From the NCBI GenBank assembly GCA_017634975.1, contig JAGBMJ010000093.1, positions 98,099 through 162,098 on the forward strand: a stretch of 64,000 nucleotides of DNA, written 5' to 3'. The notes beneath the pieces were generated by a model, which saw only the letters and a list, made by a program, of their open reading frames with translations, was not told the origin of the DNA and did not search any database. Shown piece by piece: positions 6,664 through 63,820 of this stretch (position 1 is the first letter of the stretch; each line of letters begins with the position of its first letter). The stretch comes from Lachnospiraceae bacterium. GTDB taxonomy: Bacteria > Bacillota > Clostridia > Lachnospirales > Lachnospiraceae. The position numbers were made by a program, and so were the translations under genes.

Positions 6664-6694
6664 TTAGTTTATACTAACTTCTAAAAAAAGTCAA
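6664..6694 (-). promoter_or_regulatory. Flavodoxin promoter with TTAG-N6-CTAA box
   Basis: TTGACT-N17-TAAACT (6689-6694 and 6666-6671). The inverted repeat at 6664-6677 (TTAG TTTATA CTAA on plus) overlaps the -10 element, as expected for a repressor operator. Confidence 0.7.
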
Positions 6695-6723
6695 TTACCA
6701 TTTCCTCTCATCCGTCAAAACAT

Positions 6724-8115
6724 TTAACCAAAAGGTTCACAGATCCGGTCACAGCACAGATTCATAAACTCATGATCATGCGATACCAGGATCACATACT
6801 TCTCCTGTTTTTTCAGTTCCTTCACGATATCCGCAACCCTTCTTATATTCCCGGCATCCAAACCGCTGGTCGGTTCATCAAACAGTATCACCTCGCGCTT
6901 ACTGAGCAATCCTACCGCAACGGAAAGTCTCTGTTTCTGCCCGCCGGATATGGTATTCGGATGCCGGTCTTTTAAGCCGTACAGATCCAGCCGCTTAAGA
7001 AGCTCGTCCACCTGTTGTTCCGGGATATTCTTTTGTCCGAGTATGCATTCGCCGTATACCGATTCCGCAAACAACTGATAATTGACATCCTGCATAACCA
7101 GATACGCCTTCTTCAGCAACCGTTTCGGATCCTGTTTTACCCCTTCCAGCGTGATTCCTCCATTGTATTCCCTGTGCAATCCGGCCAGCGTTCGCAGCAG
7201 GGTCGATTTGCCGACGCCGTTTTCGCCGACGATCCCGGTTACACTGCCCCTTGGGATCGACAGATTTATTTCCGCATGCAGCTGCCTCTTTCCCCGCAGC
7301 AGCTTGAGATGTTCCAGACACAGACAGTTCTCTCCTGTCGTTTTACCGCCTGCTTTGTCCGGTGTAAGCGGAGTTTTCCGAACCGATCGAAGCCCCATAT
7401 CCGCAAGCTGTTTTTCCGAAAAACCAAGCATCTCCTCTTTGGTAAATTCTCCCTGTATCCGTCCCTTCTTCAGATAGACAAAACGGTCTGCCAGATCCAT
7501 AAGATAATAGAGCCGGTGCTCCGCACACAGAACCGTTCGCCCTTCCGACTTTATCTTTTCCAGAGATTGTTTTAGTGAGCCGATTCCTTTTTCATCCAGG
7601 TTCGAAGACGGTTCATCCAGCACATATACTTCCGGCCGTACGGCATAGATGCCCGAAAACGCGATCTTTTGCTTTTCTCCGCCGGATAACTGAAAAATAC
7701 TTCTCCCGCGCAGCTCCGCAATCTCCAGTTCCGATGTTACCTCCTCCATTCTCCGTCCGATCGCATCCGGATCCATCCCCATGTTTTCCAGGCCAAATGC
7801 CAGTTCACTGTCCGTATCCGTGTTAAAAAACTGCGTTCTCGGATTCTGAAATACACTGCCGACGATCCCGGACAGTTCATAGCTTTTTCGTTCCCCGACC
7901 GGGCGATCCCCCAGCAGCACTTCCCCACTGAGTTTTCCTTTATGATAATACGGACTGATCCCGTTGATCAGTCTGGTGATCGTTGTCTTTCCGCAGCCGG
8001 ATTCGCCGATCAGTACAACAAATTCGCCATCGCGTATTTTCAGATCCACATCATAAAGGGCTCCTTCGGAAGAGCCCTCATAACAAAAACTGACTTTTTT
8101 TAATTCTGCTGTCAT
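6724..8115 (-). CDS. ECF transporter ATPase, two fused ATP-binding domains
   Basis: A 463-residue protein with two complete ABC ATPase domains. Domain 1: Walker A GESGCGKTT near residue 37, signature LSGGEKQK, VLDEPSSNLD. Domain 2: Walker A GENGVGKST, signature ISGGQKQR, FDEPTSGLD, switch VSHDH. It equals a fused EcfA1-EcfA2 pair and energises the T and S subunits encoded just upstream (3-nt gap, then an ATGA overlap). A homologous but 5'-truncated ATPase is at 53013-53837. The substrate is set by the S component and is unknown; iron or metal chelate is inferred from context. Confidence 0.88.
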   Translation of the reverse strand: MTAELKKVSFCYEGSSEGALYDVDLKIRDGEFVVLIGESGCGKTTITRLINGISPYYHKGKLSGEVLLGDRPVGERKSYELSGIVGSVFQNPRTQFFNTDTDSELAFGLENMGMDPDAIGRRMEEVTSELEIAELRGRSIFQLSGGEKQKIAFSGIYAVRPEVYVLDEPSSNLDEKGIGSLKQSLEKIKSEGRTVLCAEHRLYYLMDLADRFVYLKKGRIQGEFTKEEMLGFSEKQLADMGLRSVRKTPLTPDKAGGKTTGENCLCLEHLKLLRGKRQLHAEINLSIPRGSVTGIVGENGVGKSTLLRTLAGLHREYNGGITLEGVKQDPKRLLKKAYLVMQDVNYQLFAESVYGECILGQKNIPEQQVDELLKRLDLYGLKDRHPNTISGGQKQRLSVAVGLLSKREVILFDEPTSGLDAGNIRRVADIVKELKKQEKYVILVSHDHEFMNLCCDRICEPFG

Positions 8116-8118
8116 CTC

Positions 8119-8802
8119 TTAACCCATTATCCCAAATATGACCAATCCGATGTAACCAAACAAAATAAACATATCCGCCGGCCCAAAGCGTATCTTTAAC
8201 CGGCTGGTCCGCGGCTTCGGATTCTCGATCCCTCTTGTAACGGCCGCTACCGACAGTTCATCCGCCGTCTTGGATGCCGACACCAGTATCGGAACATAAA
8301 GTGCATCGATCACCGCCGACGGATTCTTCACAAATCCAACCGGTGTAGGACGCAGCCCGCGCAACGCCATGGCATCTTTAATATGCGACCAGTCCTCCCG
8401 TACTACCGGAAAGTACCGAAACATCACTGCCAGCGGGATCACTATACTCCGCGGTATTTTCATCTTTGCCATGCCTGCCATAAATTCGCTGATCTGCGTC
8501 GTACGGATGACGATCCCCGCCAGCATGCAGCAGGGATAGCATTTAAAGATCAGCGCCAGCCACGCCAAAAGACTGGTATGTACGACTCCTCCGATGTGCG
8601 GCAATCCGTAGATTGCAAACAAATACAGCAGAAACCAGATTGCAGCCGGGACAAGGCTTCTTTTTCGTTCTCCCAGCAGCAGTCCTGTGACCATGATATA
8701 GACGATCACGGCACAATCTTTCACGCCGGACTCTGCAAATGCCGTGTATACCACGACCAGAAGTAACAGAAACAGTTTGGTTCTCGGATCCAGGCGGATC
8801 AT
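8119..8802 (-). CDS. ECF transporter transmembrane (T) component
   Basis: A 227-residue membrane protein starting MIRLDPRTKLFLLLL. It has about five membrane helices and the coupling-helix motifs near residues 140-165 (SHIKDAMALRGLRP) and 185-200 (KTADELSVAAVTRGIE), both typical of EcfT. The start at 8802 overlaps the S-gene stop by ATGA, showing translational coupling; an apparent upstream extension is out-of-frame S-gene sequence. It bridges the ATPase and the S component. Confidence 0.87.
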   Translation of the reverse strand: MIRLDPRTKLFLLLLVVVYTAFAESGVKDCAVIVYIMVTGLLLGERKRSLVPAAIWFLLYLFAIYGLPHIGGVVHTSLLAWLALIFKCYPCCMLAGIVIRTTQISEFMAGMAKMKIPRSIVIPLAVMFRYFPVVREDWSHIKDAMALRGLRPTPVGFVKNPSAVIDALYVPILVSASKTADELSVAAVTRGIENPKPRTSRLKIRFGPADMFILFGYIGLVIFGIMG

Positions 8803-9401
8803 GCTGCGATCCCTGCTTTCACAAACTGTTTCTTCATCAGTTTGACTCCCAGCATTCCGCTGAGCAGCGCAACGATCACCGTACCGGCAACCATAATGAT
8901 CATGGTCTGTACCGTAGCCACTGCACTCATCTGCGTGATGTATTCCTGCTCCGTGCCCTTGTTCAGCATAAAGCTGATCCACGATTCCCGGTTAAAGAAA
9001 AATACGATATAGGTTCCCATCGGTCCGATGCTGTATATGATATAGGCCAGTACATTCCATCCCATATTCCGAAACTTTTTCAGACCTGCAACCAGCGCCG
9101 CGATACAGCAGCAGATCAAATAGCCAAAGTTCATCCCCCAATGCATTCCTGTCAGTGTCCCCAAAATGCAAAGAACTACTCCGACGATCATCAGCCCGCC
9201 AAGCTTCGGTACTTTTGCCAGAAACAGCATAAACACCGGCCCCGCAAGCAACGCTGCACCGATCGGATAGTAAAATGTTAAGGTAGGAACCGCCGCAAAC
9301 GGACCTCCGGTCAGTATTGCACAAAGCAGCAGCAGTACTCCGAATATACCGATCGTGATCAGATCCTTTGCACTGAATCCTTTTTCGTTTCTCTCATTCA
9401 T
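8799..9401 (-). CDS. ECF transporter S component, MptD/Trep_Strep family
   Basis: A 200-residue hydrophobic protein with about six helices, matching the Trep_Strep (MptD-like) S-component family from memory: FSAKDLITIGIFGVLLLL at the N-terminus and a central LVAGLKKFRNMGWNVLAYIIYSIG-type loop. S components capture the substrate. This family is not the biotin, riboflavin or thiamine type, and in some streptococci it occurs in siderophore loci. First gene of the S-T-A operon, with an AGGAGAT ribosome site and a TTAG-N6-CTAA box over its promoter. Confidence 0.8.
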   Translation of the reverse strand: MNERNEKGFSAKDLITIGIFGVLLLLCAILTGGPFAAVPTLTFYYPIGAALLAGPVFMLFLAKVPKLGGLMIVGVVLCILGTLTGMHWGMNFGYLICCCIAALVAGLKKFRNMGWNVLAYIIYSIGPMGTYIVFFFNRESWISFMLNKGTEQEYITQMSAVATVQTMIIMVAGTVIVALLSGMLGVKLMKKQFVKAGIAA

Positions 9402-9421: not shown

Positions 9422-9467
9422 TTAGTTTCATCTAACCGATAGTAATACTTTCTTTTCTCTTTTTCAA
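9422..9467 (-). promoter_or_regulatory. ECF operon promoter with TTAG-N6-CTAA box
   Basis: TTGAAA-N17-TACTAT (9462-9467, 9439-9444). The box at 9422-9435 lies 3 nt downstream of the -10 element, covering the expected transcription start. Confidence 0.7.
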
Positions 9468-14308: not shown

Positions 14309-16045
14309 TTATGCGATCTTCCAGGAAACCGCTTCTTTCCGTTCAGATACGAAATCCTTATAAATACCGTCTTCCTTCATCAGCTCTGCATGTGTTCCTT
14401 TTTGGGTGATCCTGCCGTTTGCGACAACCAGGATCTGGTCTGCTCCGCGAACGGTTTTCAGTCTGTGTGCGATCATTATGATCGTCTTGTTTTGGGTAAG
14501 TTCGGCGATCGCTTTGGACAATTCTGCCTCATTTTCCGGATCGATATTTGCGGTGGCCTCGTCCAGAATAATGATCGGTGCATCTTTCAGTATAGCTCGT
14601 GCAATGGAGATACGCTGTTTTTCCCCTCCGGACAGAGAGGCTCCGCCTTCCCCGATCACAGTATCGTACCCATCCGGCAGACTCATAATAAAGTCATGAC
14701 ACCTTGCTTTCTTTGCCGCTTCCATCACCCGCTCCATCGATGCATCCGGTTCACCAAAGCGGATATTGTTTGCGATCGTATCCCCGAACAGATATACCTT
14801 CTGGAATACAAAGCTGAAGTTTTTCATCAGGGAGTCAAAACTGTAGTCCTTTACATTCCGGCCTCCCAGAAGCACCTCACCGCTCGCCACATCCCAGAAT
14901 CTTGCCATCAGACTGGTCAGCGTTGTTTTTCCGCCACCGGACGGTCCTACAATGGCGGTAGTCGTATTAGCCGGGATCTTTATTGACACATCATCAATGA
15001 TCGTTTTGTCTTCATACGCAAAAGATACATGTTTCAGCTCGATATCCATAGCAGACGGCGTGATCTCTTCGCCGTCAATATCCATCGGTGGGATCGCGAG
15101 CACTTCATTGGCCTGGCTGACCACAATATTGACATTACGCATCAGCGCTGAAAATCCCCCCATCAGATCCAGGCTTTCATAAACCATAAACGAAGATATG
15201 ATCATCAGGATCGCATACAGCAGTGGCATACTTCCGTTGATACAAAAGTATACGGAAGCCAGCACCATCAGCACGCCGGTCAGCTTTGTCGTAAGTCCCT
15301 GCAAAAACATAAACGGGATAACGGTGAATTCCAATTTCGTATCCGCCGCTCTCTTTTCATTAATGGCACCTTCCAGCTTCTTCGCCGTTTTGTCCGTTAG
15401 ATTAAAATTCTTTACTTCCGCGATCCCCTGAATATATTCGATCACCGCAGCAACAAGACTTTCATCTGCACGGGATTTCCTGGGTGCTGCCGGTTTGGTC
15501 GCCTTCTGCATCATCGTATTAAAGAAGGAAAATAAGCATGTTCCAGCCAGCAGGATCATTGCAATGCGCAGATCAAAGAACAACATACATACAAAGATCA
15601 CACCGGTAGTAATAATGCCCTGTGTAGTGATCATGATCACCAGCGTTGCCACATCCGCCAGCATCTCCATCGTGTTTGTTGTGATACTCGTGATCCGTCC
15701 CAGACTGTTGGCGTTAAAAAAGCCCATAGGAAGATATCTCAAATGCTCTGCGATTTCTACACGTTTTGCACAGCAGGTATTATATCCCCCTTCGCACTGC
15801 AGCATGGTTGTTTTTAATCCGACCAGCACCTGTCCGACTATGGATATGATCATGATCCCAAACGACAGCCATACATTGCGCATACTCATATTATTGTTCA
15901 GTATCCCATGCAGTACCACTGCGATCGCTGGGATGCGAAAAGCTGCACACATTGCTTTTAATACTCCCAAAAGCATCGCGGTTTGCAGTTTTTTTCGGTT
16001 TTCGTTATTGCAAAAATCAAAGTATATCTTTAATGTTTGAAACAT
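14309..16045 (-). CDS. ABC transporter, fused permease-ATPase, second subunit of heterodimer 3
   Basis: A 578-residue half transporter. ATPase: Walker A GPSGGGKTT, signature LSGGEKQR, Walker B IIILDEATAN, switch IAHR; it ends VSWKIA. The ATG at 16045 has GGAGG 7 nt upstream and overlaps the partner's TGA. Its tail is very similar to that of pair 1 (ENWQIAG) and to the ABC remnant at 42016-42138 (ENWKI), showing the three derive from one duplicated family. YbtQ/IrtB-like. Confidence 0.85.
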   Translation of the reverse strand: MFQTLKIYFDFCNNENRKKLQTAMLLGVLKAMCAAFRIPAIAVVLHGILNNNMSMRNVWLSFGIMIISIVGQVLVGLKTTMLQCEGGYNTCCAKRVEIAEHLRYLPMGFFNANSLGRITSITTNTMEMLADVATLVIMITTQGIITTGVIFVCMLFFDLRIAMILLAGTCLFSFFNTMMQKATKPAAPRKSRADESLVAAVIEYIQGIAEVKNFNLTDKTAKKLEGAINEKRAADTKLEFTVIPFMFLQGLTTKLTGVLMVLASVYFCINGSMPLLYAILMIISSFMVYESLDLMGGFSALMRNVNIVVSQANEVLAIPPMDIDGEEITPSAMDIELKHVSFAYEDKTIIDDVSIKIPANTTTAIVGPSGGGKTTLTSLMARFWDVASGEVLLGGRNVKDYSFDSLMKNFSFVFQKVYLFGDTIANNIRFGEPDASMERVMEAAKKARCHDFIMSLPDGYDTVIGEGGASLSGGEKQRISIARAILKDAPIIILDEATANIDPENEAELSKAIAELTQNKTIIMIAHRLKTVRGADQILVVANGRITQKGTHAELMKEDGIYKDFVSERKEAVSWKIA

Positions 16046-17799
16046 CATGCCACCTCCGAATCTCTCGATGATACATGGGCCTCCCACATATCCCGATACA
16101 GCGGACAATTTCTTAACAGCTCCTCCTGTGTCCCGCAAGCCTCTACATTGCCGTCATTGATCACTATGATCTGATCGGCTGATACGATGGTCGACAGTCG
16201 GTGTGCGATAACAATCAGCGTTTTTCCCTGCACCAGTTTTGCGACCGATCGCTGTACCAAAGCCTCATTTTCCGGATCGGTATAAGCCGTTGCTTCATCC
16301 AGGATCACAACCGGTGCATTTTTCAACATCGCTCTGGCAATACTGATCCGCTGCCTTTCTCCACCGGACAAGTGGCCACCTGCTCCGCCCGCAATGGTGT
16401 CATAGCCTTTTTCCAGCTTTGTTATGAAATCATGACATCCACAAGCCTTAGCCGCATTCATCACTTCTTCGTCGCTTGCCCCCGGGCGTCCCATACGAAT
16501 ATTTTCCATAACCGTTTCATCAAACAGATAGTTCTCCTGGGAAACATAACCGATATACCGGTTATATATATCCAATGGGATCTCCTTTATATTCACACCG
16601 CCATAGGATATCTCCCCGCTGTCCACATCCCAGAACGATGCGATCAGTTTCGCAATGGTTGATTTTCCGGAACCGGAAGGTCCCACCAGTGCATTCACCG
16701 TACCTTCTTTGATCGTCAGGTCGATCCCATGCAAAACTTCCGTTTCTTTATATCCGAAATGTACATTGCGAAAGCAGATATCCGTTCCCTGCGGTACTTT
16801 CTTCATCTGATCCGGACGATCCATCTCCCGCATTTCCAAAATGCTCGTCACTTCTCCGATGATGGAACTCATCTTCCCCACATTATCCACGTGTCCAGCA
16901 ACAACCATAAACGGTGATACCAGACCAAGAGCCAGAATGATCAGCAAAAGTGCATCCGCACCATCCACACGTCCCGTCATATAAAACCATGCGGTAAACG
17001 GAAGAAGCGTGAGCAGCTGCGCCGGAAGAAGTGCCATCGCAATATTCTGTACCACATTACAGCGCCGCATCCATTCGATAAAGCAATCGGCACCTTCTTT
17101 TGCAGCTTTCGAAAACTTTTCATAAGATGATCTGGTTTTGCTGAATGCTTTGATCACTTCGATCCCATTGATGTATTCCACTGCAGTATCATTCAGGGCT
17201 TTGGTCTTTTCTATGGTATTTTGGTAGCTCTCCGTTGCACCAACCATCATCAGGCAGTAAAAGATAAGTCCGACCGGAACACTGATCAGCGCCAGCAGGG
17301 TAAGATGCCGGTTGATCGTAAACATCAGGATCAGTATTCCAACCGGAACGATCGCGTTAGAGATCACCTCCGGAATGATATGCGCCAACGTGGTCTCGAC
17401 AGAATCCACACGCTCCACGATTATATTTTTATAGGACCCGGAAGAATCCTCCAGAACATCTCCCAGAGGCATACGACTTAACTTTTTGGTCAGTCTTCTT
17501 CGGATCTCTGCCAGCACTCCAAATGTCGCTTTGTGCGATGTTGCTGTGGATATGATATGAAATGCACGATTGGCCAGCCAGCAAAGTGCCATATATCCGC
17601 ACTGCGTCAGGTAAAACTGCATATCACGATTACCATCGATCAATGCCCGTACCGTATTGGCCACAAACAGATACGGTATAAATCCGGCGATCACGCTTAG
17701 TATTGCCATCACAATACTGAACAGATAGGCGCTGCGGTCCATTCCGGCAAATTCCAGTACCCAGGCCAGAGTTCCTTTCTTTTTTTCTTTTTTGTTCAT
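16045..17799 (-). CDS. ABC transporter, fused permease-ATPase, first subunit of heterodimer 3
   Basis: A 584-residue half transporter from ATG 17799. Walker A GPSGSGKST, signature LSGGERQR, Walker B VVILDEATAY, switch IAHR; the membrane domain has the VDSVETTLAHIIPE segment of the first-subunit subfamily. An in-frame ATG at 17826 exists, but it lies 2 nt from the TTAG-N6-CTAA operator and has no ribosome site, whereas AGGAGG sits 14 nt before 17799. YbtP/IrtA-like. Confidence 0.85.
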   Translation of the reverse strand: MNKKEKKKGTLAWVLEFAGMDRSAYLFSIVMAILSVIAGFIPYLFVANTVRALIDGNRDMQFYLTQCGYMALCWLANRAFHIISTATSHKATFGVLAEIRRRLTKKLSRMPLGDVLEDSSGSYKNIIVERVDSVETTLAHIIPEVISNAIVPVGILILMFTINRHLTLLALISVPVGLIFYCLMMVGATESYQNTIEKTKALNDTAVEYINGIEVIKAFSKTRSSYEKFSKAAKEGADCFIEWMRRCNVVQNIAMALLPAQLLTLLPFTAWFYMTGRVDGADALLLIILALGLVSPFMVVAGHVDNVGKMSSIIGEVTSILEMREMDRPDQMKKVPQGTDICFRNVHFGYKETEVLHGIDLTIKEGTVNALVGPSGSGKSTIAKLIASFWDVDSGEISYGGVNIKEIPLDIYNRYIGYVSQENYLFDETVMENIRMGRPGASDEEVMNAAKACGCHDFITKLEKGYDTIAGGAGGHLSGGERQRISIARAMLKNAPVVILDEATAYTDPENEALVQRSVAKLVQGKTLIVIAHRLSTIVSADQIIVINDGNVEACGTQEELLRNCPLYRDMWEAHVSSRDSEVA

Positions 17800-17827
17800 A
17801 CTACGTTTTCTATCCTCCTTACTCATA

Positions 17828-17841
17828 TTAGTCTTTTCTAA
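17828..17841 (-). promoter_or_regulatory. TTAG-N6-CTAA box upstream of ABC pair 3
   Basis: Exact TTAG TCTTTT CTAA at 17828-17841. A TATACT -10-like hexamer lies just upstream on the minus strand, so the box again falls at the expected transcription start. Confidence 0.6.
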
Positions 17842-21868: not shown

Positions 21869-21869
21869 A

Positions 21870-43805: not shown

Positions 43806-43832
43806 CTGAGAATTAGTCTCCTACTATTCCTA

Positions 43833-49617: not shown

Positions 49618-50343
49618 TTATGAATTCTCTCTGCCGCTCCCAAGGAACATCAATGTAAACCACAAGATCATGCTTTCGCTCATTAGACCATTCGTAAATC
49701 CCAGTCGGAAAGCACCTACAGGCATAATGGATGCTATCATCTTCAAAACGGCAAATATAACCAACACATTCGTAAATGCCATACCTTTCCTGAACAAAGT
49801 CTTGCCTGTGATTTGAAGATAAAACCAGTACAGAAATACCGGCAGCATCACCACTTCGCTTACCGGAATCAACCACGCAAAATTATCATACAACGCCTCA
49901 CATATCGTAAGTGCATCTCTTGCGAATCCATTGTTGTTCAGCCACGCAAAAAGGCTAAGGATCACAACATAGATCAGATGAAGCGCGATCCAAGGTGTAA
50001 GACCAAAAGCATTCAGATAATGATATATCCTTTTGCGCTTTTCGTCCTTGATATAGTCCTGTATCGCAAAGAGACCTATACCATAGAACAGGATCCCCGG
50101 AAAGGCAAGCGTCATTGCAAGTATATATCTCCACTGAGGAATCTTAGCTGTACCAACGGTAAGCCAGTATAGTTTTCCCATGTTTGTGGGATCTCCGTAC
50201 ATCATCAGCCAATCTCCGCCGCCATAGCACAGGCAGCCGAGTATCCCACATATAAGCGCCCGTATATTTTTTGTTATATCAGAAGATTTCTTCCTCGGGA
50301 TACATTTCGGAGCATCCGTTTCATCATACTCATTGCTGAACAT
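49618..50343 (-). CDS. Multi-pass membrane protein, GD/PxW family, paralogue 4
   Basis: A 241-residue membrane protein with a hydrophilic N-terminus of about 28 residues and seven helices; helix 1 ends YGGGDWLMMYGDP and IPQWRYILAM precedes helix 2. AGGAGAG lies before ATG 50343, inside the end of the hydrolase gene (14-nt overlap), so the two are coupled. Function unknown. Confidence 0.65.
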   Translation of the reverse strand: MFSNEYDETDAPKCIPRKKSSDITKNIRALICGILGCLCYGGGDWLMMYGDPTNMGKLYWLTVGTAKIPQWRYILAMTLAFPGILFYGIGLFAIQDYIKDEKRKRIYHYLNAFGLTPWIALHLIYVVILSLFAWLNNNGFARDALTICEALYDNFAWLIPVSEVVMLPVFLYWFYLQITGKTLFRKGMAFTNVLVIFAVLKMIASIMPVGAFRLGFTNGLMSESMILWFTLMFLGSGRENS

Positions 50344-51541
50344 TGCTATTTCTCTCCTTATTCCTGTCCGTCTGCTCGATCCAATCGCAGATTACATCAA
50401 TCGTCAGCTGCCCATTGCCGACATTACAGTGATTCTGAGCATCTTCCTTGTCGGTAAACAGCCGGAAAGTCAGAGACCGTACATTCTTAAGCATATTGAT
50501 CTCGCGGCCGATCAGTGTATAATCAATGAAATGATCTCCGTTTGCCCCTAAGATCAGCATATCCTGTGTGATCTTGTCCGCGATTGGCGCCAGATCATAT
50601 TTCTTCAGCTTCCTGGCATAGGAATAGGCATCCTTCGCCTCATAAGCATAGCATCCATGTTTGATGCCCCAGTCAATGATCGGTGATTCTTTCGCCTTCT
50701 TCGTAAATACCATATTCATCAGCGGGCGCGCATGAAGCTTCATCAGGATATGAAATGCCTTCTGTACATTGACCGGCTGCATACTAACCAATATATCCTG
50801 AAAGCATGGGAAAACCGACCAGGCCACTACTTTCGTGATTCGCTTATCGAATGCCGCTGCTCTTGGCGCAAGATATCCTCCCAGAGAGATACCGATGATC
50901 GTAACATCCTTTAGCTTGAAGTAATCCAGGATCGCTTTTACCGGTTTCTCCCACTTGTGCGTAAAATGCATTCCCTGCAAGCGCATCACACCACCCTGTC
51001 CGGGTCCTTCAAACATATAAACCTCAAAGCCCTTTTCCTGCATATAAAGCACCGTAAAAAGGAACTCCTCGAAATAGCTGTCATTTCCGCCGTGGATCAG
51101 TATCGTTCCCTTACTCTTCCCTGCCGGCACTACATGCATCACAGGGAGCTTTACATGTTCAAACGGCACATCATATCTCTCGATCCTCGGATGATCTCCT
51201 TCAAAGAAATCCGCATAATACTCATAAAACAGTTCTGTCGCCTTCTCGTAATACTTCCTCTTATCCGGATCACCATCATACATAAAAAACTCACTCATTC
51301 TGTAATATGCGATCGCATTTCCCGTTCTTCCCTCTTTCATAGCCGCATCACCCAATCCGATCAGTTCCCGCTTCCAATCGGCACTGTTGCGGATCTTTCC
51401 GGCTACTTTCTTTACATCGGACAGTTCTCCGCCATCCCAGTTTATAACACGGTTCAACTGATAATTGAAGTTTGCCTCGTCATTCAACTGGTATACGCCT
51501 CTCTTAAGGACGATGGGCTGGTTCACATCATATTTTTCCAT
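50330..51541 (-). CDS. FrsA-like alpha/beta hydrolase
   Basis: A 403-residue enzyme: helical N-terminal region of about 140 residues (GRTGNAIAYYRMSEFFMYDGDP), then an alpha/beta hydrolase with GTILIHGGNDSYFEE (oxyanion), nucleophile elbow IIGISLGGYLAPRAA near 220 and likely acid/base residues in GANGDHFIDY and AQNHCNVG. Similar to DUF1100/FrsA-type esterases. GGGAGG before the ATG. Coupled to membrane paralogue 4; divergent from nothing, with an AraC gene 98 nt upstream on the same strand. Confidence 0.78.
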   Translation of the reverse strand: MEKYDVNQPIVLKRGVYQLNDEANFNYQLNRVINWDGGELSDVKKVAGKIRNSADWKRELIGLGDAAMKEGRTGNAIAYYRMSEFFMYDGDPDKRKYYEKATELFYEYYADFFEGDHPRIERYDVPFEHVKLPVMHVVPAGKSKGTILIHGGNDSYFEEFLFTVLYMQEKGFEVYMFEGPGQGGVMRLQGMHFTHKWEKPVKAILDYFKLKDVTIIGISLGGYLAPRAAAFDKRITKVVAWSVFPCFQDILVSMQPVNVQKAFHILMKLHARPLMNMVFTKKAKESPIIDWGIKHGCYAYEAKDAYSYARKLKKYDLAPIADKITQDMLILGANGDHFIDYTLIGREINMLKNVRSLTFRLFTDKEDAQNHCNVGNGQLTIDVICDWIEQTDRNKERNSNVQQ

Positions 51542-51638
51542 AATAAAAACCTCCCGTTCATGATGATCCCATGATAACAGGAGATTTCTTATCCTACTTT
51601 CAAATAGATGCTAACTTTTGATCTTCAGAATCGTAACA

Positions 51639-52361
51639 CTAACTTTTGACAAATTCAGAAAAGGATATGCCGAACATTCTCTTGCAGGTAGCCGCAAAGT
51701 GTGATGGAGAGTCGAATCCGGCATTAAGAGCCGCCTCAGTGATATTTCTTGTATTGCAATAATGAAGATATCCCTTCTTCATCTTCTCAAGAGCAAGATA
51801 TCTTCCAAGGGCAATTCCCATCTGCGCCTTGAATAAATGCGACAGCCTGCTTTCCGAAAGGCTTGCTTCACGACACAGCCGCTCCATAATATCTGTTGGT
51901 ATCGAATCGCTGCTTTCCAGATAGGTCAATACGCTCTGTACCCTCTCGTCTGTTGTCAGCTTAACACCCATGTGAATTCCACACACTTCCAGCAGTCTTT
52001 GATCCGCTTCTTTAAGATCATCGGAACACTTCTTCCATATATCTGCCATGTTATCTACAGTTGCCTTTTCCATCATGGCATAGTCATTACCATGAAGATA
52101 GTTTTCATCTACGATCCTTGCCATGTCGCTGGTCGTATCCAATAGAAACAACAGCATATCGCCTGTTTCTGCATATATGGTATGCTCCCTATCCGATGTG
52201 ATAAATACTCCCCTGCATTTGAATGTATCTGCGCCTACGATACAGGTAAGTTCGTCCTTTATTCCGAATACGATATGCGCCGCAAGATGTTTATGAATAT
52301 CCGGTGTCCGGTATTCCGACCGTATCAATATATGATCATATTCAAACAGAATGTCCGTCAT
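51639..52361 (-). CDS. AraC-family regulator
   Basis: A 240-residue regulator with a small N-terminal cupin-like domain and two helix-turn-helices in the last 100 residues (EASLSESRLSHLFKAQMG and ITEAALNAGFDSPSHFAATC, ending ISFSEF). ATG 52361 is taken, though an in-frame TTG six bases upstream has a better-spaced AAAGGA. It precedes the hydrolase/membrane pair and probably controls it. Confidence 0.83.
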   Translation of the reverse strand: MTDILFEYDHILIRSEYRTPDIHKHLAAHIVFGIKDELTCIVGADTFKCRGVFITSDREHTIYAETGDMLLFLLDTTSDMARIVDENYLHGNDYAMMEKATVDNMADIWKKCSDDLKEADQRLLEVCGIHMGVKLTTDERVQSVLTYLESSDSIPTDIMERLCREASLSESRLSHLFKAQMGIALGRYLALEKMKKGYLHYCNTRNITEAALNAGFDSPSHFAATCKRMFGISFSEFVKS

Positions 52362-52383
52362 ATCCAAACTACATCCTTTACAA

Positions 52384-52896
52384 TCATGTTTTTTTCCTCG
52401 GGAACCAGGGAATGCAGCGATTCACATGTTTTTTATATTCTTCGTATTCTTTTCCATATAGTCCAAGCAGCCACTTTTCTTCTGTATTGATCAGCGCTAT
52501 TGTCATAATCCCCCAGTCAATCAGTGGGAGAATCAATGTCCATATATTATGCCACATAAATGTGATACCGGTTAGCGCTATCCAAATTCCGCTGTACATG
52601 GGATTTCTTACCCATGAATATATCCCCTTCGTCTGAAGTCGGTTCTCACTTATGGAGGCATCCATGTCCGATCCTAGTGCCCCTTTATACCATAGAATCC
52701 CGCCAAGGATCATCAGAAGAACCGCAACCACCCGAAATATTAATATCCATGTTGCCTCCAATAATCCAATTTTGAAAACATAACAAAGCAAAACGATTCC
52801 GATCACATTTACCATCACCATTCCATATACAATGTATGGTCCCACCCCAAATAAGGGGAGTTTCTGGCCGTCTTTTACGAAATTTTTCAGTTTCAT
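52384..52896 (-). CDS. Isoprenylcysteine/phospholipid methyltransferase-family membrane protein
   Basis: A 170-residue membrane enzyme with four or five helices and the ICMT/PEMT signature: TKGIYSWVRNPMYSGIW at about 90-106, then EEKWLLGLYGKEYEEYKKHV near 140-160. It uses SAM to methylate a lipid, isoprenoid or cysteine at the membrane. Preceded by a TGGATT-N17-TAATAT promoter with a TTAG-N6-CTAA box; 17 nt before the AraC gene. Acceptor unknown. Confidence 0.82.
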   Translation of the reverse strand: MKLKNFVKDGQKLPLFGVGPYIVYGMVMVNVIGIVLLCYVFKIGLLEATWILIFRVVAVLLMILGGILWYKGALGSDMDASISENRLQTKGIYSWVRNPMYSGIWIALTGITFMWHNIWTLILPLIDWGIMTIALINTEEKWLLGLYGKEYEEYKKHVNRCIPWFPRKKT

Positions 52897-52936: not shown

Positions 52937-52985
52937 TTAGTTTATGCTAACTATATATATTACCACTATTTTCAAGGAAAATCCA
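52937..52985 (-). promoter_or_regulatory. Conserved TGGATT promoter with TTAG box
   Basis: TGGATT-N17-TAATAT (52980-52985, 52957-52962) and the box TTAG TTTATG CTAA at 52937-52950. Confidence 0.7.
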
Positions 52986-53012: not shown

Positions 53013-53837
53013 TCAATGAATCTCCAGTACCTCATCTGCAGCAATATTGATAAACTCCCTATCATGTGTGATCACCAGAATGCATGTGTCTTTTTCTGCT
53101 GCTCTTCTTAAGTATTCCGCTATGATCCGCATATGCCGCCCATCCAGTCCACTGGTCGGTTCATCCAGGATCAGGATCGGCCGATTTCTCAATAGTGCAG
53201 CTGCCAGGATGACCCGCTGTTTCTGCCCTCCGGATAAGGATGCCGGATGCCGGTTCCGAAACTGCCACAGATCAAACTCCTTCAACATACGGATCACTTC
53301 CTCATCATCTGCCGAAAATCCCGTATTTAGAGTTACTTCCTGCAAAACCGTCGGTGTAAAGATCTGATAATCTGCATCCTGCCCGACAAAAAAGCAGTCA
53401 TGGATACGCTTTTTTGCCGGTGTGTTCTCGCCATAAATAAAAACGGATCCCTTCTGCTGCTTTATCTCTCCGCTAATGATCTTGCAAAAGGTCGTTTTTC
53501 CTACTCCGTTTACGCCGGTGATCGCGGTGATCTGTCCACGGTAAAACTCCGCTGACATGTCATCAAATAGTGTTCGTTTCCCCCGTTTTAAGCAGATCTT
53601 CTCCACCCGCAGTATCGGCGTATCTCCTTTTTTTCTACCTGTCGGTTCAAATTCCGGTATCTCTGACAGAACACGCAGTCCCATCCCGATCATTTTCATA
53701 TCGCTCAGTTTATAAAATTCCTCATGCCGGAACTCCTTTTCGATCATCCCGGAGCGCATCACGATCATCCGGTCTGCCACATCCTTAAGATAACCCAACC
53801 GATGCTCTCCTTTTTGATTTATTTGTTTTTCCTTCAT
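53013..53837 (-). pseudogene. 5'-truncated ECF double ATPase
   Basis: 274 codons. Residues 10-60 (GEHRLGYLKDVADRMIVMRSG) correspond to the end of domain 1 of the ECF ATPase at 6724-8115 (AEHRLYYLMDLADRFVYLKK). The rest is a full domain 2 with GVNGVGKTT, LSGGQKQR, ILDEPTSGLD and THDRE. Domain 1 is lost, and the first codons overlap the end of the ABC-2 permease gene in another frame, marking a deletion junction near 53810. The second domain could still fold, but no S or T gene is near. Confidence 0.8.
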
Positions 53838-54855
53838 AACACATACCGATCACAAACAATACCACCGATACCACCAGCACCATCAGCGCTTCTTTCAAAC
53901 CACTGCTGATCGCTCCGCTCTGCTGCATTTTTTCGATCCCGTATGCGATCCATCTCTGCGGGAAACAGGAACCGATCCTTTGCATTGCCTGTGGCATATA
54001 CCGAAACGGAAACAATACACCGGAAAACAACGACATCGGCATCAGGATAAATGTTCCCACAAATCCGAGAGCATCCTCTTTTTTCAAAAAAGCAGCGAAG
54101 AAGACGTAGATCGAAACCGACAGCACATTACTGATAAACAACATCAGCAGGAATCCGAGAGAGTTGCGCATTCCGAAATCAAAATTCAGAACCAGCCCAA
54201 CCAGGTAATAACTGACAGAACCGATCATCATAAATGCCAGATACACCAATGCCATTCCCAACAGATAGGATGACTTCTTTACGCCACTTAACATGATACG
54301 GTCTTTCATCCGGTTCCTGCGCTCTTCGATGATCAACGCTCCCAAAAGATTTCCGGCAGTCAGCGTCTTAAAGATCATGAATGCCAGTGAATTGGAGATG
54401 GATATCCATTTCTTCAGTGCAGCATTCACGGAAACCTCCGCTCCCGCACCTGTATCTCCGCTTCGATATGCTCGTAATGATTCATTTACGCACAGTTCCA
54501 CCGCGTCTTCCACTTCTGAGTCTTCTATGCTGATCAGCTCCACCAAGGGGCGTTCAATGTTCTCAGAATCCGAGATCAGAACCGCCAGTTCTGCATTTCC
54601 TCCGATCAGTTTCTCCGTGATCTTCTCCGCATCGATCTCCCGTACACTGATACCTTCCAATGCCTGCAGATTCTCCAGTACCATTGCTGCCGCTTCGGAA
54701 TCGCATTCCTTTGCAACAACGATATCATGCGTTGATTTGTAGGGAAGCAAAAACGACATCAGCAAGAATATCATGACCGGCTGTATCGTGATCAGATAGA
54801 TCAATTCCTTATTCCTTCGAAATAATGTATAAGTATTTTTCATTACACTGATCAT
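53785..54855 (-). CDS. ABC-2 type permease, subunit 2
   Basis: A 356-residue permease: helix near 20-40, a large loop of about 140 residues, then five helices in the C-terminal half with the ABC-2 segment FVGTFILMPMSLFSGVLFPF near 283. It overlaps the first permease by ATGA. The last seven residues (RASVGLS) are encoded by out-of-frame ECF ATPase sequence, so the natural C-terminus was probably altered by the deletion. Confidence 0.82.
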   Translation of the reverse strand: MISVMKNTYTLFRRNKELIYLITIQPVMIFLLMSFLLPYKSTHDIVVAKECDSEAAAMVLENLQALEGISVREIDAEKITEKLIGGNAELAVLISDSENIERPLVELISIEDSEVEDAVELCVNESLRAYRSGDTGAGAEVSVNAALKKWISISNSLAFMIFKTLTAGNLLGALIIEERRNRMKDRIMLSGVKKSSYLLGMALVYLAFMMIGSVSYYLVGLVLNFDFGMRNSLGFLLMLFISNVLSVSIYVFFAAFLKKEDALGFVGTFILMPMSLFSGVLFPFRYMPQAMQRIGSCFPQRWIAYGIEKMQQSGAISSGLKEALMVLVVSVVLFVIGMCYEGKTNKSKRRASVGLS

Positions 54856-55937
54856 ACTTTTTTACCCACCTTCTTTCCTGCAAATATTCCCACTATGGCC
54901 AGCATGATCGTAAGCCCTCCCAGCACCAGGATACTGTATAGCATCTTCTCATCCACAATACCGTTATACAGGCTGGTTACCGAACGGTTCACATAGTATA
55001 GCGGGCTCAGTTGTATGATCCGGTTCAGTACCGGCACATTTTCCAGCAGATACAACGGCGTGATCGAACCTCCCAGATAACCACAGAGCATTGCAAACAT
55101 CATCACCATACTCTGGCACATAGTCTTGTTCTTTCCGATCATTCCGACAACACAGCCGAATGCTGCGCTGAAGATCACCAGGCACAGAAGGATCAACAGG
55201 ATATACACTGTCTTATCTCCCCAGTTTACATTCAGAACTGTACGGGAATACAGATACGATGCCCCGATCATTACCATCCCGCATACGACACCGGTCAGCA
55301 CTTTGGAAAAGACCATTCCCGGTATGCCAGCATTGGATAGTTTAATACGTTCGATCGTTCCGTGTTCTTTTTCGTCATAGACCATGAATGCCACCAGTAA
55401 TCCCATAAACATGATCGAGAAGGACAATCCTGCAAAAGTATAATAATTTTTCGCTTCAAACCGCTGTACTTCGATCTGTGTTCTTTTTACACCGTTTCCT
55501 ATCTCCGTTCTTTCAAACTCTTTCGGATCTCCCGCCATCTGAGCAAAAAGAGTTCTAACCAGTTTCGCTCCCTCCGGCTCATTAAAACTACTCCGGAAGT
55601 AGCCATAACCGTCTTGTTTTACGGAAATCACACCATAAGCCCGGCTGGATTCCACTTCGCTGCAGGCTGCCTTGTAATCATTCACCTGCTCAAAGCACAC
55701 TCCCAGGCCTTCCAGTTTCTGACGGATCTCTTCGAATCCGGATAAAACCGCTCCTTCATCCTCAACATAATAGTATACTTTTGCATTCTGAAATGTCCCG
55801 TATTCCCCACCTATATAATCCCGCAGCGCATAACTGAAGATCGTGATCAGCAGCAGCGGCATGCAAAACATAAACATGAGATTACCTTTACTTGTGAAGA
55901 ATACTTTGATCTCTTTTCCCAGCTGTAATAAAAACAT
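54852..55937 (-). CDS. ABC-2 type permease, subunit 1
   Basis: A 361-residue permease with one N-terminal helix, a long extracytoplasmic loop (about 45-165) and five C-terminal helices, including the ABC-2 motif DEKEHGTIERIKLSNAG near 189 and MFAMLCGYLGGSITPLYLLE near 275. AGGTGAG before the ATG. With the ATPase 8 nt upstream and the second permease it forms a DrrAB-like exporter. Confidence 0.85.
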   Translation of the reverse strand: MFLLQLGKEIKVFFTSKGNLMFMFCMPLLLITIFSYALRDYIGGEYGTFQNAKVYYYVEDEGAVLSGFEEIRQKLEGLGVCFEQVNDYKAACSEVESSRAYGVISVKQDGYGYFRSSFNEPEGAKLVRTLFAQMAGDPKEFERTEIGNGVKRTQIEVQRFEAKNYYTFAGLSFSIMFMGLLVAFMVYDEKEHGTIERIKLSNAGIPGMVFSKVLTGVVCGMVMIGASYLYSRTVLNVNWGDKTVYILLILLCLVIFSAAFGCVVGMIGKNKTMCQSMVMMFAMLCGYLGGSITPLYLLENVPVLNRIIQLSPLYYVNRSVTSLYNGIVDEKMLYSILVLGGLTIMLAIVGIFAGKKVGKKV

Positions 55938-55945
55938 GATCTCAC

Positions 55946-56899
55946 CTACTCTCCATCTCTCAATTCTTTTCCTGTGAGTGTCAGGAAGATCTCTTCCAGA
56001 CTGGGTTCCAGATTACGTATGTTCGTAATCGTAAGTCCCGCATCCGCTGCCAGACGTATCACATCTTCCAGCACCTTCACTTCCTCTGCATAAAAGATCT
56101 TACAAACCTTTTTCTCTTCTTCCACAGTTACCGTACTTCGGTGTACACCGTATATATTTCGGATAGCGTTTTCAAATCCTTCAAGATTCTCATCCTTCTC
56201 AGAGAACTCTACATCCAGCTCCAAATCTTTTCCCATCTTCTCGATGATCTCCGCCTTGGTCCCCCCGGCAACTACTTTTCCGTGATCGATGACCGTGATC
56301 TTATTACAGATCTCTTCCACCTCCGGCATATAGTGTGTGGTATATATGATCGTTGCTCCATTTTCGTTTAGTGCATGTACATTTTCCAGAATTCGATTGC
56401 GTGACTGCGGATCAATACCGACTGTCGGTTCATCCATTATGATCAGTTTCGGAGAATGCACGATCCCGCACGCCATATTCAGTCTGCGTTTCATACCTCC
56501 GGAATACTCGGATGCTTTCTTTCTCTTTACTTCCAAAAGTCCGACAAAATCCAATGCCGCTTCTACCTTTTCTTTCAGTTCGCTTCCCTTATAACCATAC
56601 AATGAACAAAAGAACCGTACATTCTCTTTCGCCGACAGATCCGGATAAATTGCAAGATCCTGTGGTACATACCCTATGTTCCTTTTCCATTTGGCGATCG
56701 ACTGTCCGTTTTCAAAACTGATCTTTCCTCCATCATATGGCAGAAGCCCCGTCATACAATTGATCGTCGTGCTCTTTCCTGCACCGTTCGGCCCCAGGAT
56801 CCCGTGTACCTCTCCCTGTTCTACCGTAAAAGATACCCCATTCACCGCAGTAAGATCTGCAAATGTTTTTTGCAGGTTTTCAATCGTAACGATTCCCAT
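55946..56899 (-). CDS. ABC-2 exporter ATPase (DrrA/CcmA type)
   Basis: A 317-residue ATPase from ATG 56899 (GGAGG 5 nt upstream): Walker A GPNGAGKST near 40, signature YSGGMKRR near 136, Walker B LIIMDEPTVGID, switch TTHYM, and a DrrA-type C-terminal domain (LRNLEPSLEEIFLTLTG-like end). Drives export of a drug, lipid or signalling molecule. Its promoter and the divergent TetR promoter share one TTAG-N6-CTAA box. Confidence 0.88.
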   Translation of the reverse strand: MGIVTIENLQKTFADLTAVNGVSFTVEQGEVHGILGPNGAGKSTTINCMTGLLPYDGGKISFENGQSIAKWKRNIGYVPQDLAIYPDLSAKENVRFFCSLYGYKGSELKEKVEAALDFVGLLEVKRKKASEYSGGMKRRLNMACGIVHSPKLIIMDEPTVGIDPQSRNRILENVHALNENGATIIYTTHYMPEVEEICNKITVIDHGKVVAGGTKAEIIEKMGKDLELDVEFSEKDENLEGFENAIRNIYGVHRSTVTVEEEKKVCKIFYAEEVKVLEDVIRLAADAGLTITNIRNLEPSLEEIFLTLTGKELRDGE

Positions 56900-56969
56900 T
56901 TTTCCCTCCAATTGTTTATTTTGTGTTTTATATGAATATTTTTATCATTTTATTCATTTTGCAGTTAAT

Positions 56970-57033
56970 AAGTTAGCAAATACTAACGACATTGTCAATA
57001 GCATTTGACAAAGATTTTCATAAATGGTATATT
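56970..57033. promoter_or_regulatory. Divergent promoters sharing one TTAG-N6-CTAA box
   Basis: Minus strand: TTGACA-N17-TAACTT (56993-56998, 56970-56975), with the box TTAG CAAATA CTAA (56973-56986) in the spacer. Plus strand: TTGACA-N17-TATATT (57005-57010, 57028-57033) for the TetR gene, about 20 bp from the box. Confidence 0.72.
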
Positions 57034-57681: not shown

Positions 57682-59124
57682 TCACTCCCAGAAACGATAT
57701 ACCGCCAGACGGTCATTAAACTTTTTGAAAAACACATTCCCGATCTTCCCGGCCAGCGTATACTTCTTCATCTCTTCAAAGAAACTGGTCTCACGCAGGA
57801 GCTGAAAATCGTCACACAGCTCCTCCAGCTCATGTCCATCCTCGATCCCCCATTGGAATACAGCATTGGTATTCTTCACGGTATCATGTTTCTCCGTATT
57901 CTTCGCTGCAAACGGATGCATCAGTTCCGCCAGCAGATAACCCTTATGGAAATGTCCGCTGATCCGTGTCAGGATCTGCTTCACCTGTTCCCCGGTAAAA
58001 TACATGAACAGTCCCTCTGCGATCACGATGGTGACACGGTCATTCGGTATTCCGTTTGTCCAATTCTCCGAGAGCAGATCCCCCTCGATCAAAAACTCCC
58101 GCGGTCTTTCTTCAAAGCATTTTCTGCGTATCGCTATAGAATCCGGCAGATCCACATTGTACCAGAGCACCTGTCCGTTATCCACACGCGAAAAACGATC
58201 ATCAAAGCCACAGCCGATATTGACCACTATCGCATTCGGGTATTTCTTCAGAGCCTTCTTCATCTCATTATCAAACAGGATCGTTCTCGCTACAACACCT
58301 TCATGCGACATAAACCGGTCATATTTCTCCGTATCGATCTTTAAACTGTCTATGATCTCGATCGCCTTTGCATCGTAGATCCGGTGATTTGCCCGTTTGC
58401 TTTCGTTTGCTTTGATCGCTAACGGGATCAATGCGGTTTCCTGCACATCCCCCAGTTCAATATTCAGCTTCTGTCTGCCCTTTACCGGCTTTCTGGCCAC
58501 ACTGTGCAGGCGGCAGAAACCACGTCTCTCAAATGATTCCATCACCAGTCCCGCCCTGTTGCACAGACGATTGACATCCTCTTTTCCGTAGATCCGTACA
58601 TCCCCTTTTCCAAACAGATTAAAGATGGGGATCTCGACATGATTACAAAACCAGCGTACCGCCCCGTTATCCATCGTCATATCCCGCAGGATCAGTCTCC
58701 CGCCCGGACGAAGTACACGGTATACACTGTCGAAGAAATCCTGCACGTTCGGATAATGGTGAAAACTCTCGCAACAGATCACCACATCAAAACTTTCCGG
58801 TGCAAACGGAAGATTCTCACAATCTCCTACCACCAGTTCCACACCTTCCATATTCTTGCCCTTTGCCACTTCGATCATCTTTGGTGTCAGATCGATCCCG
58901 GTATAATGTTTTTCCGGATATTTCTCATGCAACAGCGTGAGCATCGGCGCCGGTCCGCATCCGCAATCCAGCAGATCTGTAAAGGGTTCCTTTTCCAATT
59001 CTGCAAGAACATCCGGGTAATCTTTCTTGCACATCTTGTATACGCCGCCCTTGTCTGTTTCATAGACCTCAGCTGCTTTGGTAAATTCCCCTACGGATAT
59101 TTCTTTATATTTTTTGTCAGTCAT
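57682..59124 (-). CDS. Fusion of two SAM methyltransferases (UbiE-type plus LCM/TcmP-type)
   Basis: A 480-residue protein from ATG 59124 (GGGAGGC upstream). Residues about 1-210 are a Methyltransf_11/UbiE-type enzyme (LLDCGCGPAPMLTLL near 50, VVGDCENLPFAPESFDVVIC, LRPGGRLILRDM). Residues about 215-480 resemble the leucine carboxyl methyltransferase/TcmP O-methyltransferase family (VVNIGCGFDDRFSRVDNG, NVDLPDSIAIRRK, IAEGLFMYFTGEQV, ending AVYRFWE). The two active sites may act on one substrate in turn. A strong promoter with a TTAG-N6-CTAA box precedes it. Confidence 0.82.
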   Translation of the reverse strand: MTDKKYKEISVGEFTKAAEVYETDKGGVYKMCKKDYPDVLAELEKEPFTDLLDCGCGPAPMLTLLHEKYPEKHYTGIDLTPKMIEVAKGKNMEGVELVVGDCENLPFAPESFDVVICCESFHHYPNVQDFFDSVYRVLRPGGRLILRDMTMDNGAVRWFCNHVEIPIFNLFGKGDVRIYGKEDVNRLCNRAGLVMESFERRGFCRLHSVARKPVKGRQKLNIELGDVQETALIPLAIKANESKRANHRIYDAKAIEIIDSLKIDTEKYDRFMSHEGVVARTILFDNEMKKALKKYPNAIVVNIGCGFDDRFSRVDNGQVLWYNVDLPDSIAIRRKCFEERPREFLIEGDLLSENWTNGIPNDRVTIVIAEGLFMYFTGEQVKQILTRISGHFHKGYLLAELMHPFAAKNTEKHDTVKNTNAVFQWGIEDGHELEELCDDFQLLRETSFFEEMKKYTLAGKIGNVFFKKFNDRLAVYRFWE

Positions 59125-59168
59125 CGAAACGCCTCCCATCCCACTATGTAACACGCATAGAATCATCG

Positions 59169-59217
59169 TTAGTCTCTGCTAACCTATGATTATAGTACAA
59201 CCTTTCTATTCATGCAA
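59169..59217 (-). promoter_or_regulatory. Double methyltransferase promoter with TTAG box
   Basis: TTGCAT-N17-TATAAT (59212-59217, 59189-59194), with the box TTAG TCTCTG CTAA at 59169-59182 starting 6 nt past the -10. Confidence 0.75.
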
Positions 59218-63047: not shown

Positions 63048-63072
63048 GGATTCTCACATCTTTCAACGCTCC

Positions 63073-63663
63073 CTACTCTTTCCGGAAGACAATCTGTCTT
63101 TCACATAAACCAACTTTTGCCTGTCCTTTTTCCTGCAGCGACACTCTTTCTGCAGATGTGATCAGATCTATATCACGGTACATACAATCTTCCTCCGAAC
63201 AGTTTCCAACCGAAGCCGCATACATTCGGTTATAAGTATTCACAAATATTCCCCCCTCCGACAGAACCCTGCAAATTTCCTGTAATACCTGTTCCGGTTT
63301 CTTCCAAAAATAGAAGGTATCCGTTGTGATCACCGCATCGAAAAAATCATCCTGATAAGGGAGTTCACAGGCGTCCGCTATCTGCAGATCTGCTTTATTT
63401 CCAAGCCTTTTCGTCGCAGCATCAAACATATCCGCGGAGATATCCACCCCATACAATTCCGCTTCCGGGTACTCTCTTTGGATCAGTTCCAACTGTTTTC
63501 CGTTTCCGAAACCGATTTCAAGTATCCGTTTCTTTCCCTTCAGTATCCGGATATTGGCTTTATACATTTTATTATTCGACAGGTTCATGATTCCGGAGAG
63601 AAATCTTCCAAATCCACCTTCCGGTTTGCCGAATTGACGTATGAAATAATTCATCCTTTTCAA
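63073..63663 (-). CDS. Class I SAM-dependent methyltransferase
   Basis: A 196-residue enzyme with the full type-11 set: ILEIGFGNGKQLELIQREYP near 45, AELYGVDISADMF near 67, LQIADACELPYQDDFFDAVI near 93, and ILSEGG-like motif IV (CRVLSEGGIFVNTYNRMYA). Start either TTG 63663 or ATG 63654; neither has a strong ribosome site. It has a TTGATT-N17-TACACT promoter with a long palindrome containing the TTAG box. Substrate unknown. Confidence 0.83.
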   Translation of the reverse strand: MKRMNYFIRQFGKPEGGFGRFLSGIMNLSNNKMYKANIRILKGKKRILEIGFGNGKQLELIQREYPEAELYGVDISADMFDAATKRLGNKADLQIADACELPYQDDFFDAVITTDTFYFWKKPEQVLQEICRVLSEGGIFVNTYNRMYAASVGNCSEEDCMYRDIDLITSAERVSLQEKGQAKVGLCERQIVFRKE

Positions 63664-63761
63664 CTCACTTTCTTCCGGATCACCGCTATGGCACAGGGCA
63701 TACGTCCATCCACAATGTAATATTCTGCATTGCTATTCCTAACGATGATCATGGAAACAGT

Positions 63762-63820
63762 AGATGTGGTTAGATAAATCTAACCGCATCTAGTGTACCA
63801 CTTATACTCCGGAAAATCAA
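63762..63820 (-). promoter_or_regulatory. Methyltransferase promoter with extended TTAG palindrome
   Basis: TTGATT-N17-TACACT (63815-63820, 63792-63797). The box TTAG ATAAAT CTAA (63770-63783) is the centre of a 30-bp palindrome (63762-63791, 13 of 14 bp paired per arm) directly after the -10. Confidence 0.78.

Follow-up and report, generated by a model that had tools for sequence, protein, structure and literature searches.

The stretch analysed here (the window) comprises 64,000 nucleotides of a Lachnospiraceae bacterium genome (assembly GCA_017634975.1, contig JAGBMJ010000093.1, positions 98,099 to 162,098 of the forward strand). It carries a gene for a short regulator of the DtxR family and ten exact matches to the palindrome TTAG-N6-CTAA, spread over 57 kb. 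We consider it very likely that these palindromes are the operators of a short DtxR/MntR-superfamily metalloregulator of the EqbA type, without an SH3 domain and probably responsive to iron. The regulator gene, the predicted operators and one near copy are as follows (no strand is assigned to the palindromes; aa, amino acids; ORF, open reading frame; ABC, ATP-binding cassette; ECF, energy-coupling factor).

5090..5464, minus strand: short DtxR-family regulator, 124 aa, no SH3 domain; Pfam Fe_dep_repress and Fe_dep_repr_C are found in the longer ORF 5090-5602.
6664..6677: predicted operator before the flavodoxin-DUF3793-DtxR genes; -35 box TTGACT upstream, -10 box inside the site.
9422..9435: predicted operator before the ECF importer operon; conserved with a flanking promoter in the orthologous locus of genome G024.
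17828..17841: predicted operator before the ABC pair 14309-17826; conserved in G024; promoter score met by 12% of shuffles.
36864..36877: near copy with one mismatch, before a TetR gene (36208-36813); uncertain.
41188..41201: predicted operator before the TetR/BAAT_C hydrolase genes; TTGACA just upstream, -10 box overlapping the site.
41863..41876: predicted operator before the gene of a 164-aa protein; -10-like box with its end 7 bp upstream, the promoter not outscoring shuffles.
45289..45302: predicted operator before the DUF6796-DUF6796-TetR-BAAT_C genes; the best-scoring promoter is a distant one.
52937..52950: predicted operator before the PEMT-like methyltransferase/AraC/hydrolase/DUF6796 genes; -10-like box with its end 7 bp upstream, the promoter not outscoring shuffles.
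56973..56986: predicted operator before the ABC-2 exporter genes, with a divergent TetR gene on the other side; TTGACA just upstream, -10 box overlapping.
59169..59182: predicted operator before the fused methyltransferase gene; TTGCAT-17-TATAAT ends 7 bp upstream.
63770..63783: predicted operator before the class I methyltransferase gene; promoter ends 9 bp upstream.

The original prediction had reported ten exact copies, all intergenic and upstream of genes, where about one was expected by chance in 64 kb. All ten were found at the positions it gave, and 100 dinucleotide shuffles of the window produced a mean of 0.60 matches and a maximum of 3. When the spacer was varied from 0 to 20, N6 gave ten matches and each other spacer at most one. 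In the whole assembly (4.36 Mb, 147 contigs, contamination 7.46%) the corresponding counts were 25 for N6, 4 for N5 and 2 for N9. Ten of the 25 sites lie on the contig of the window (C45; contig and window end at the same point), five on the 21.6-kb contig C18, where they fall within 14 kb, three on C28, two on C6, and the remaining five are singletons. Reading the 14-bp pattern backwards as a control retrieved 44 genomic matches, that is, more than the motif itself, because the reversed pattern has a different base order. With one extra base per side, GTTAG-N6-CTAAC, the genome holds 12 matches and the backward-read control none. The outer G occurs in 64% of the half sites of this genome and in 73% of external half sites, and both outer bases are present in seven of the ten window sites, whereas an inner G after TTAG is rare (14% and 4%, respectively). 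Each window site is a lone core, with no second core five bases off. One-mismatch matches were not enriched as a class (17 found, 17.7 expected), and the near copy at 36864, which does exist as previously listed, is therefore left uncounted.

A genome-wide comparison of coding with intergenic copies had also been proposed. None of the 25 sites, those of the window included, is contained in a greedily chosen ORF of at least 75 aa, and the sites on C11 and C102, whose surroundings are identical, both overlap an ORF end by a few bases. Intergenic location alone is weak evidence, since the motif carries stop codons in two of the three frames on each strand. The likeness between C11 and C102, together with the equal scores of the FeoB genes on C104 and C120, may reflect two strains in the assembly.

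The claim that most sites lie at a recognisable promoter holds for position and less well for score. In nine of the ten cases the site is overlapped by the best sigma-70-like promoter or lies at most 11 bp from its end. The promoter score was met by at most 4% of 200 letter shuffles at six sites, and fell short of that level at 17828, 41863, 45289 and 52937. On the strand of the downstream operon, sites 6664, 41188 and 56973 lie between the -35 and -10 boxes or over the -10 box. At six others (9422, 17828, 41863, 52937, 59169 and 63770), 4 to 11 bp separate the end of a -10-like box from the site, which would thus cover the transcription start. Judged from sequence, such a placement would suit a repressor.

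At three operators we observed a further element, GGTATGGATTTT, at 41904-41915, 45330-45341 and 52978-52989 (two copies exact, one with one mismatch). It begins exactly 41 bp from the start of the operator, roughly where a -35 box would be expected. As a loose pattern it occurs 12 times in the window against 8 expected, which is no enrichment; it is possibly an activator site or marks another promoter class.

The short DtxR-family gene that had been proposed at 5090-5464 is borne out by Pfam, both domains scoring over their cut-offs (38.2 and 49.5 bits). The Fe_dep_repress winged helix and the Fe_dep_repr_C dimerisation and metal domain place the product in the DtxR/MntR superfamily. It lies outside DtxR/IdeR proper: the protein stops after the dimerisation domain, with no C-terminal SH3-like domain, and instead of a 19-bp operator for two dimers the window has single cores in which the inner G is rare. 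The nearest PDB chains are MntR and IdeR, and the best NCBIfam models are those of MntR, below their cut-offs. Cys100 of the window protein sits where MntR has Glu (the Glu99 column), while Glu103 and His104 are kept; the alignment of DACRVEH with DVEGIEH of MntR places this cysteine in the column of DtxR Cys102. Cys100 and the nature of the target genes suggest that iron rather than manganese would be the metal sensed. The dtxR gene is the last of the three genes (flavodoxin-DUF3793-dtxR) downstream of site 6664, and autoregulation through this site is probable. A second DtxR paralogue is encoded on contig C33; the 14 kb examined around its gene contain no site. The recognition helices of the two proteins, KKSSVSVAMKNL (window) and RKSSVSIAMKNL (C33), are nearly alike, so the product of the window gene need not be the sole binder.

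The predicted regulon has the targets of an iron-uptake regulon, with sites at the feoAB genes of the same genome, at feoB of relatives and at an ABC subunit resembling IrtA (site 17828). On contig C28, TTGACA and TATACT flank a site that precedes a feoA-like ORF and FeoB (a 666-aa open frame); the feoA-like ORF and the promoter boxes were read from the sequence, not scanned. Four FeoB genes that adjoin sites in the congeneric genomes G002 and G003 were confirmed by Pfam. Two ABC half transporters of the window were compared with known structures and proteins, taking the best 60 of 590 and 582 hits. That at 2325-4298 scored 335 and 294 bits with two chains of 6p6i (YbtPQ) and up to 267 with IrtA, against 248 with Sav1866, and that at 16045-17826 scored 278 bits with IrtA and 276 and 244 with 6p6i, against 243 with TM_0288. 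The partner chain in 8vsi bears the name YbtQ. Among the matches listed, higher scores go to full-length eukaryotic ABCB proteins, in which two halves are matched. The importers lead the exporters by a modest margin, and of the two half transporters only 16045-17826 stands under a site. The regulon reaches past the window to feoB on C28 and probably to C18. The sites on C6 (two), C11, C102, C54, C86 and C123, which adjoin genes for a glycosidase, a solute-binding protein, phosphoglycerate mutase, a LysR regulator and others, are not claimed as members, nor are the C28 sites before HlyD-type and TetR genes.

The motif recurs in named genomes, for which we took the best 80 loci from a scan with the DtxR alignment, more candidates being available. 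They are mostly from Lachnospiraceae and other Clostridia, including Enterocloster bolteae, Mediterraneibacter, Clostridium oryzae and an Eisenbergiella; the nearest named relatives of the host are mostly gut Clostridia. DNA identity between these loci and the genus loci compared was at most about 75% (alignments of at least 500 bp), and some named loci may be congeners. N6 was found 100 times and N10 25 times, and every other spacer from 0 to 20 between 3 and 13 times. Ninety of the 100 N6 sites lie outside ORFs, compared with 3 of 7 and 2 of 10 for the same-frame controls N9 and N12. An N6 site is present in 48 of the 80 loci, and in 28 it lies about 0-420 bp upstream of dtxR, a position in which spacers 3-5, 7-9, 11 and 12 occur at most once and N10 occurs 11 times. 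Within 350 bp of the 100 sites there are ORFs for DtxR (33), FeoB (23), flavodoxin (4), DUF3793 (4) and enolase (1), and 46 sites have a nearby ORF outside this reference set (the classes overlap). In Clostridium oryzae DSM 28571 sites accompany dtxR as well as feoB. TTAG-N10-CTAA was considered as a second motif and rejected, since part of its 25 hits arise from a longer palindrome, TTAGTTAG-N6-CTAACTAA; the remaining N10 matches are separate from it. In loci L152, L160, L167, L174, L177, L186 and L192 operators occur in pairs spaced 25-61 bp, for the most part at promoters of dtxR, flavodoxin and feoB genes, which suggests cooperative binding there; the window promoters, unlike these, have single exact sites.

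Within the genus (35 genomes, the host included) a profile search detected DtxR-family genes in 32 genomes. Among 56 tblastn rows for DtxR, a site was located within 10 kb in 26 and within 1.5 kb in 19. In a tree of 55 rows (one 76-aa row was left out), site presence follows the branching: 8 changes were needed, against a mean of 18.6 after shuffling, and none of 500 shuffles was as low, a result that near-copies favour. Of the 15 rows of one clade 13 have sites, and in eight of the 15 three sites stand just upstream of dtxR, spaced 29-30 and 35-86 bp; ten rows overall have two or three sites in this position. The clade of the window protein has three rows, each with a site no more than 10 kb away. 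In G023, G017 and G032 (loci L113, L115 and L116) no more than about 6 kb separates two divergent DtxR paralogues, and operators are nearby. The island of the window has an orthologue in G024 (S component 92% identical, CbiQ 82%, ATPase 81%, ABC pairs 77-88%, AraC 91%), and the alignment shows that sites before the ECF operon and before the counterpart of the ABC pair 14309-17826 are kept. Sites before methyltransferase, PEMT or TetR-BAAT genes akin to those in the right half of the window occur in G002, G003, G024, G025, G027 and G034, and a TetR gene of G003 related to that of the 41188 operon likewise has a site. An enolase gene is present in the site-bearing islands of G002, G003, G024 and G027, right after the site in three of them, and also follows a site in C. 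citroniae (side loci L031:2336-3643, L035:7783-9168, L257:16178-17476, L263:10800-12110 and L158).

The closest known parallel is EqbA of Streptococcus equi, the repressor of the equibactin (eqb) locus in ICESe2 (PMC3672683). Its proposed operator is a 36-bp palindrome with the core GTTAGATGTATCTAAC, cations raised its binding to the eqb promoter in mobility shifts, and deletion of eqbA increased the eqbE transcript 13-fold and iron content almost twofold; the authors note the missing SH3 domain and link a cysteine at an iron-type ligand to the response to iron (PMC3672683). EqbA and the window protein have in common an SH3-less DtxR/MntR-like make-up, the GTTAG-N6-CTAAC core as proposed operator, seen at window sites, and the Cys ligand, and both loci encode YbtPQ-like ABC transporters and, in the window probably, an iron uptake function. 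This likeness is drawn from the published operator and ligands. The 16-bp EqbA core is identical to a site of G002 (C1:310352, reverse strand) upstream of DUF3793-flavodoxin genes. Where eqb, as described, is one nonribosomal peptide synthetase (NRPS) siderophore locus with one 36-bp palindrome, the window repeats a 14-16-bp core ten times in 57 kb; no NRPS is recognised among the window ORFs scanned, the regulon takes in feoB and unexplained enzymes, and the first metal ligand is Asp instead of Asn.

The motif had further been described as contained in the 19-bp DtxR/IdeR box. According to PMC8464063, IdeR/DtxR complexes had earlier been described as two dimers on 19 bp, but a single IdeR dimer can also occupy a half site, and the 14-bp consensus TTAGGNNNNCCTAA was proposed for it. 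This consensus is a subset of TTAG-N6-CTAA; the earlier claim thus holds for the half bound by one dimer and not for the whole box. IdeR and DtxR differ further in their SH3 domain and inner G. MntR of B. subtilis and E. coli resembles the window protein in having the closest solved structures, no SH3 domain and part of the ligands; it differs at the Glu99 column, and the targets here look like iron uptake. A text search for the motif sequence found no paper on it. Among the open-licence papers listed, judged by titles and abstract starts, none described a DtxR regulon in Lachnospiraceae, and among reports on DtxR regulons in Lachnospiraceae and Clostridia none besides the EqbA paper concerned the motif.

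We propose that, when ferrous iron is plentiful, the metal-loaded dimer would bind GTTAG-N6-CTAAC, one dimer per site, and that the bound repressor, situated between the -35 and -10 boxes or over the transcription start, would keep RNA polymerase off. As iron falls, the repressor would release and the operons would be expressed together: the ECF importer, the ABC pair similar to siderophore importers, the flavodoxin and regulator genes, the ABC-2 exporter, methyltransferases, hydrolases and DUF6796 membrane proteins. The feoAB operon elsewhere in the genome would belong to the same response. Since relatives tie the motif to a DtxR-family repressor, the transporters and the unexplained enzymes are probably switched on together at low iron. 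The regulon is unusual for its size, its clustering and its unexplained gene content, and related clusters are found in several congeners. The genes under the sites are the following.

5533..6614, minus strand: DUF3793 protein (5533-6132) and flavodoxin (6183-6614), probably one operon with dtxR.
6724..9401, minus strand: ECF importer, with a double ATPase (6724-8115), CbiQ (8119-8982) and a Trep_Strep/MptD-type S component (8799-9401).
14309..17826, minus strand: ABC pair; subunit 16045-17826 resembles the siderophore importers IrtA and 6p6i (YbtPQ).
38404..41139, minus strand: TetR, BAAT_C-type hydrolase, one protein without assignment, TetR.
41335..41829, minus strand: 164-aa protein with no Pfam or NCBIfam match.
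42147..45180, minus strand: two DUF6796 proteins, TetR, BAAT_C hydrolase.
49618..52896, minus strand: PEMT-like methyltransferase, AraC regulator, alpha/beta hydrolase, DUF6796.
53013..56911, minus strand: ABC-2 type exporter, two ATPases and two permeases.
57682..59166, minus strand: fused class I methyltransferase and LCM-like methyltransferase.
63073..63663, minus strand: class I methyltransferase.

Two ABC pairs of the window (553-4298 and 9540-13003) have no site. The regulon is interrupted, since the stretch 17892-31020 is site-free and holds other genes, among them TetR, a peptide/nickel-type ABC importer and a ZnuA-ZinT zinc protein; the importer and the fusion of the zinc uptake families ZnuA and ZinT occupy 18581-25465, inside the island and with no operators. 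Matches to the manganese exporter MntP and to a ZIP importer fall in one ORF, 59280-60641, which makes it an odd fusion of two opposite transporters; no operator precedes it. Tentatively, and with more doubt than conviction, we suggest that the right half of the island, with its DUF6796 proteins, PEMT-like and class I methyltransferases, BAAT-type and other hydrolases and ABC-2 exporter, could be an undescribed iron-starvation pathway run as a physically clustered DtxR regulon, for example one making, remodelling or salvaging a small non-NRPS metallophore.

Several observations weigh against an iron-responsive DtxR regulon governed from the window. Pfam brought no siderophore synthase to light among the window ORFs scanned (none was sought genome-wide), and the contigs of the two other FeoB genes of the host (799 aa, C104 and C120) are free of sites. 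In 32 of the 80 named DtxR loci no site lies within reach. No DtxR gene was detected by the profile search in G013, G033 and G034, which still hold 3, 5 and 2 strict sites, those of G033 and G034 preceding genes like those of the window; completeness is rated at 100% for G013 and 97% for G033. The window protein is not a member of the clade in which most site triplets occur, and it shares with MntR an Asp as first metal ligand. Finally, a 19-row clade that includes the C33 paralogue has no site near any row; a spacer scan near its genes for a second operator brought out nothing that stood out (N11 three times, others at most once).

The palindromes may be DtxR-type operators whose main binder is the C33 paralogue, alone or with the window protein, acting in trans, the window gene being secondary; we regard this as a serious possibility, though we lean against it. 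G024 and G027 each have a single DtxR, of the C33 clade and with no site within 10 kb, and yet contain 16 and 14 strict sites, some of them in islands that also hold orthologues of window genes. Proteins of the C33 type thus probably bind the motif in trans, and the near identity of the recognition helices points the same way, whereas the site at the head of the window dtxR's own gene run and the sites near all three members of its clade argue for the window protein. That the regulator answers mainly to manganese appears unlikely. The MntR structures and models nearest to it, the Asp ligand and the presence of the MntP-ZIP gene inside the island would fit manganese, but the Glu99 column holds Cys, as reported for EqbA, many of the targets are feoB genes, two ABC proteins resemble siderophore importers, and no site precedes the MntP-ZIP gene.

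The island is rich in TetR genes, several of them next to sites, so that a TetR-family regulator might be thought to own the palindromes; this is very improbable, as the same motif stands at dtxR and feoB promoters of other genomes, many different TetR genes would face one motif, and EqbA, as published, offers a precedent. Ten copies within 57 kb might also be mobile or structural elements with no regulatory role, a reading to which we give almost no credence: the copies agree in their half sites alone and differ in the six central bases and in most flanks, and most sites occupy two narrow positions relative to the promoter. The original reading of a DtxR-type regulon is strengthened by the recurrence of the motif at DtxR genes and feoB elsewhere, by the host's own feoB and by the EqbA core as described. 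It is to be amended in that the set extends beyond the window and the C33 paralogue may bind.

A clean operator, GTTAG-N6-CTAAC, tied to a regulator family would allow the iron regulon to be listed from sequence in those Clostridia that carry it. It would connect iron to families without a function, namely DUF6796, DUF3793 and the Trep_Strep ECF modules, and would extend a one-locus precedent, EqbA, to a widespread regulatory code.

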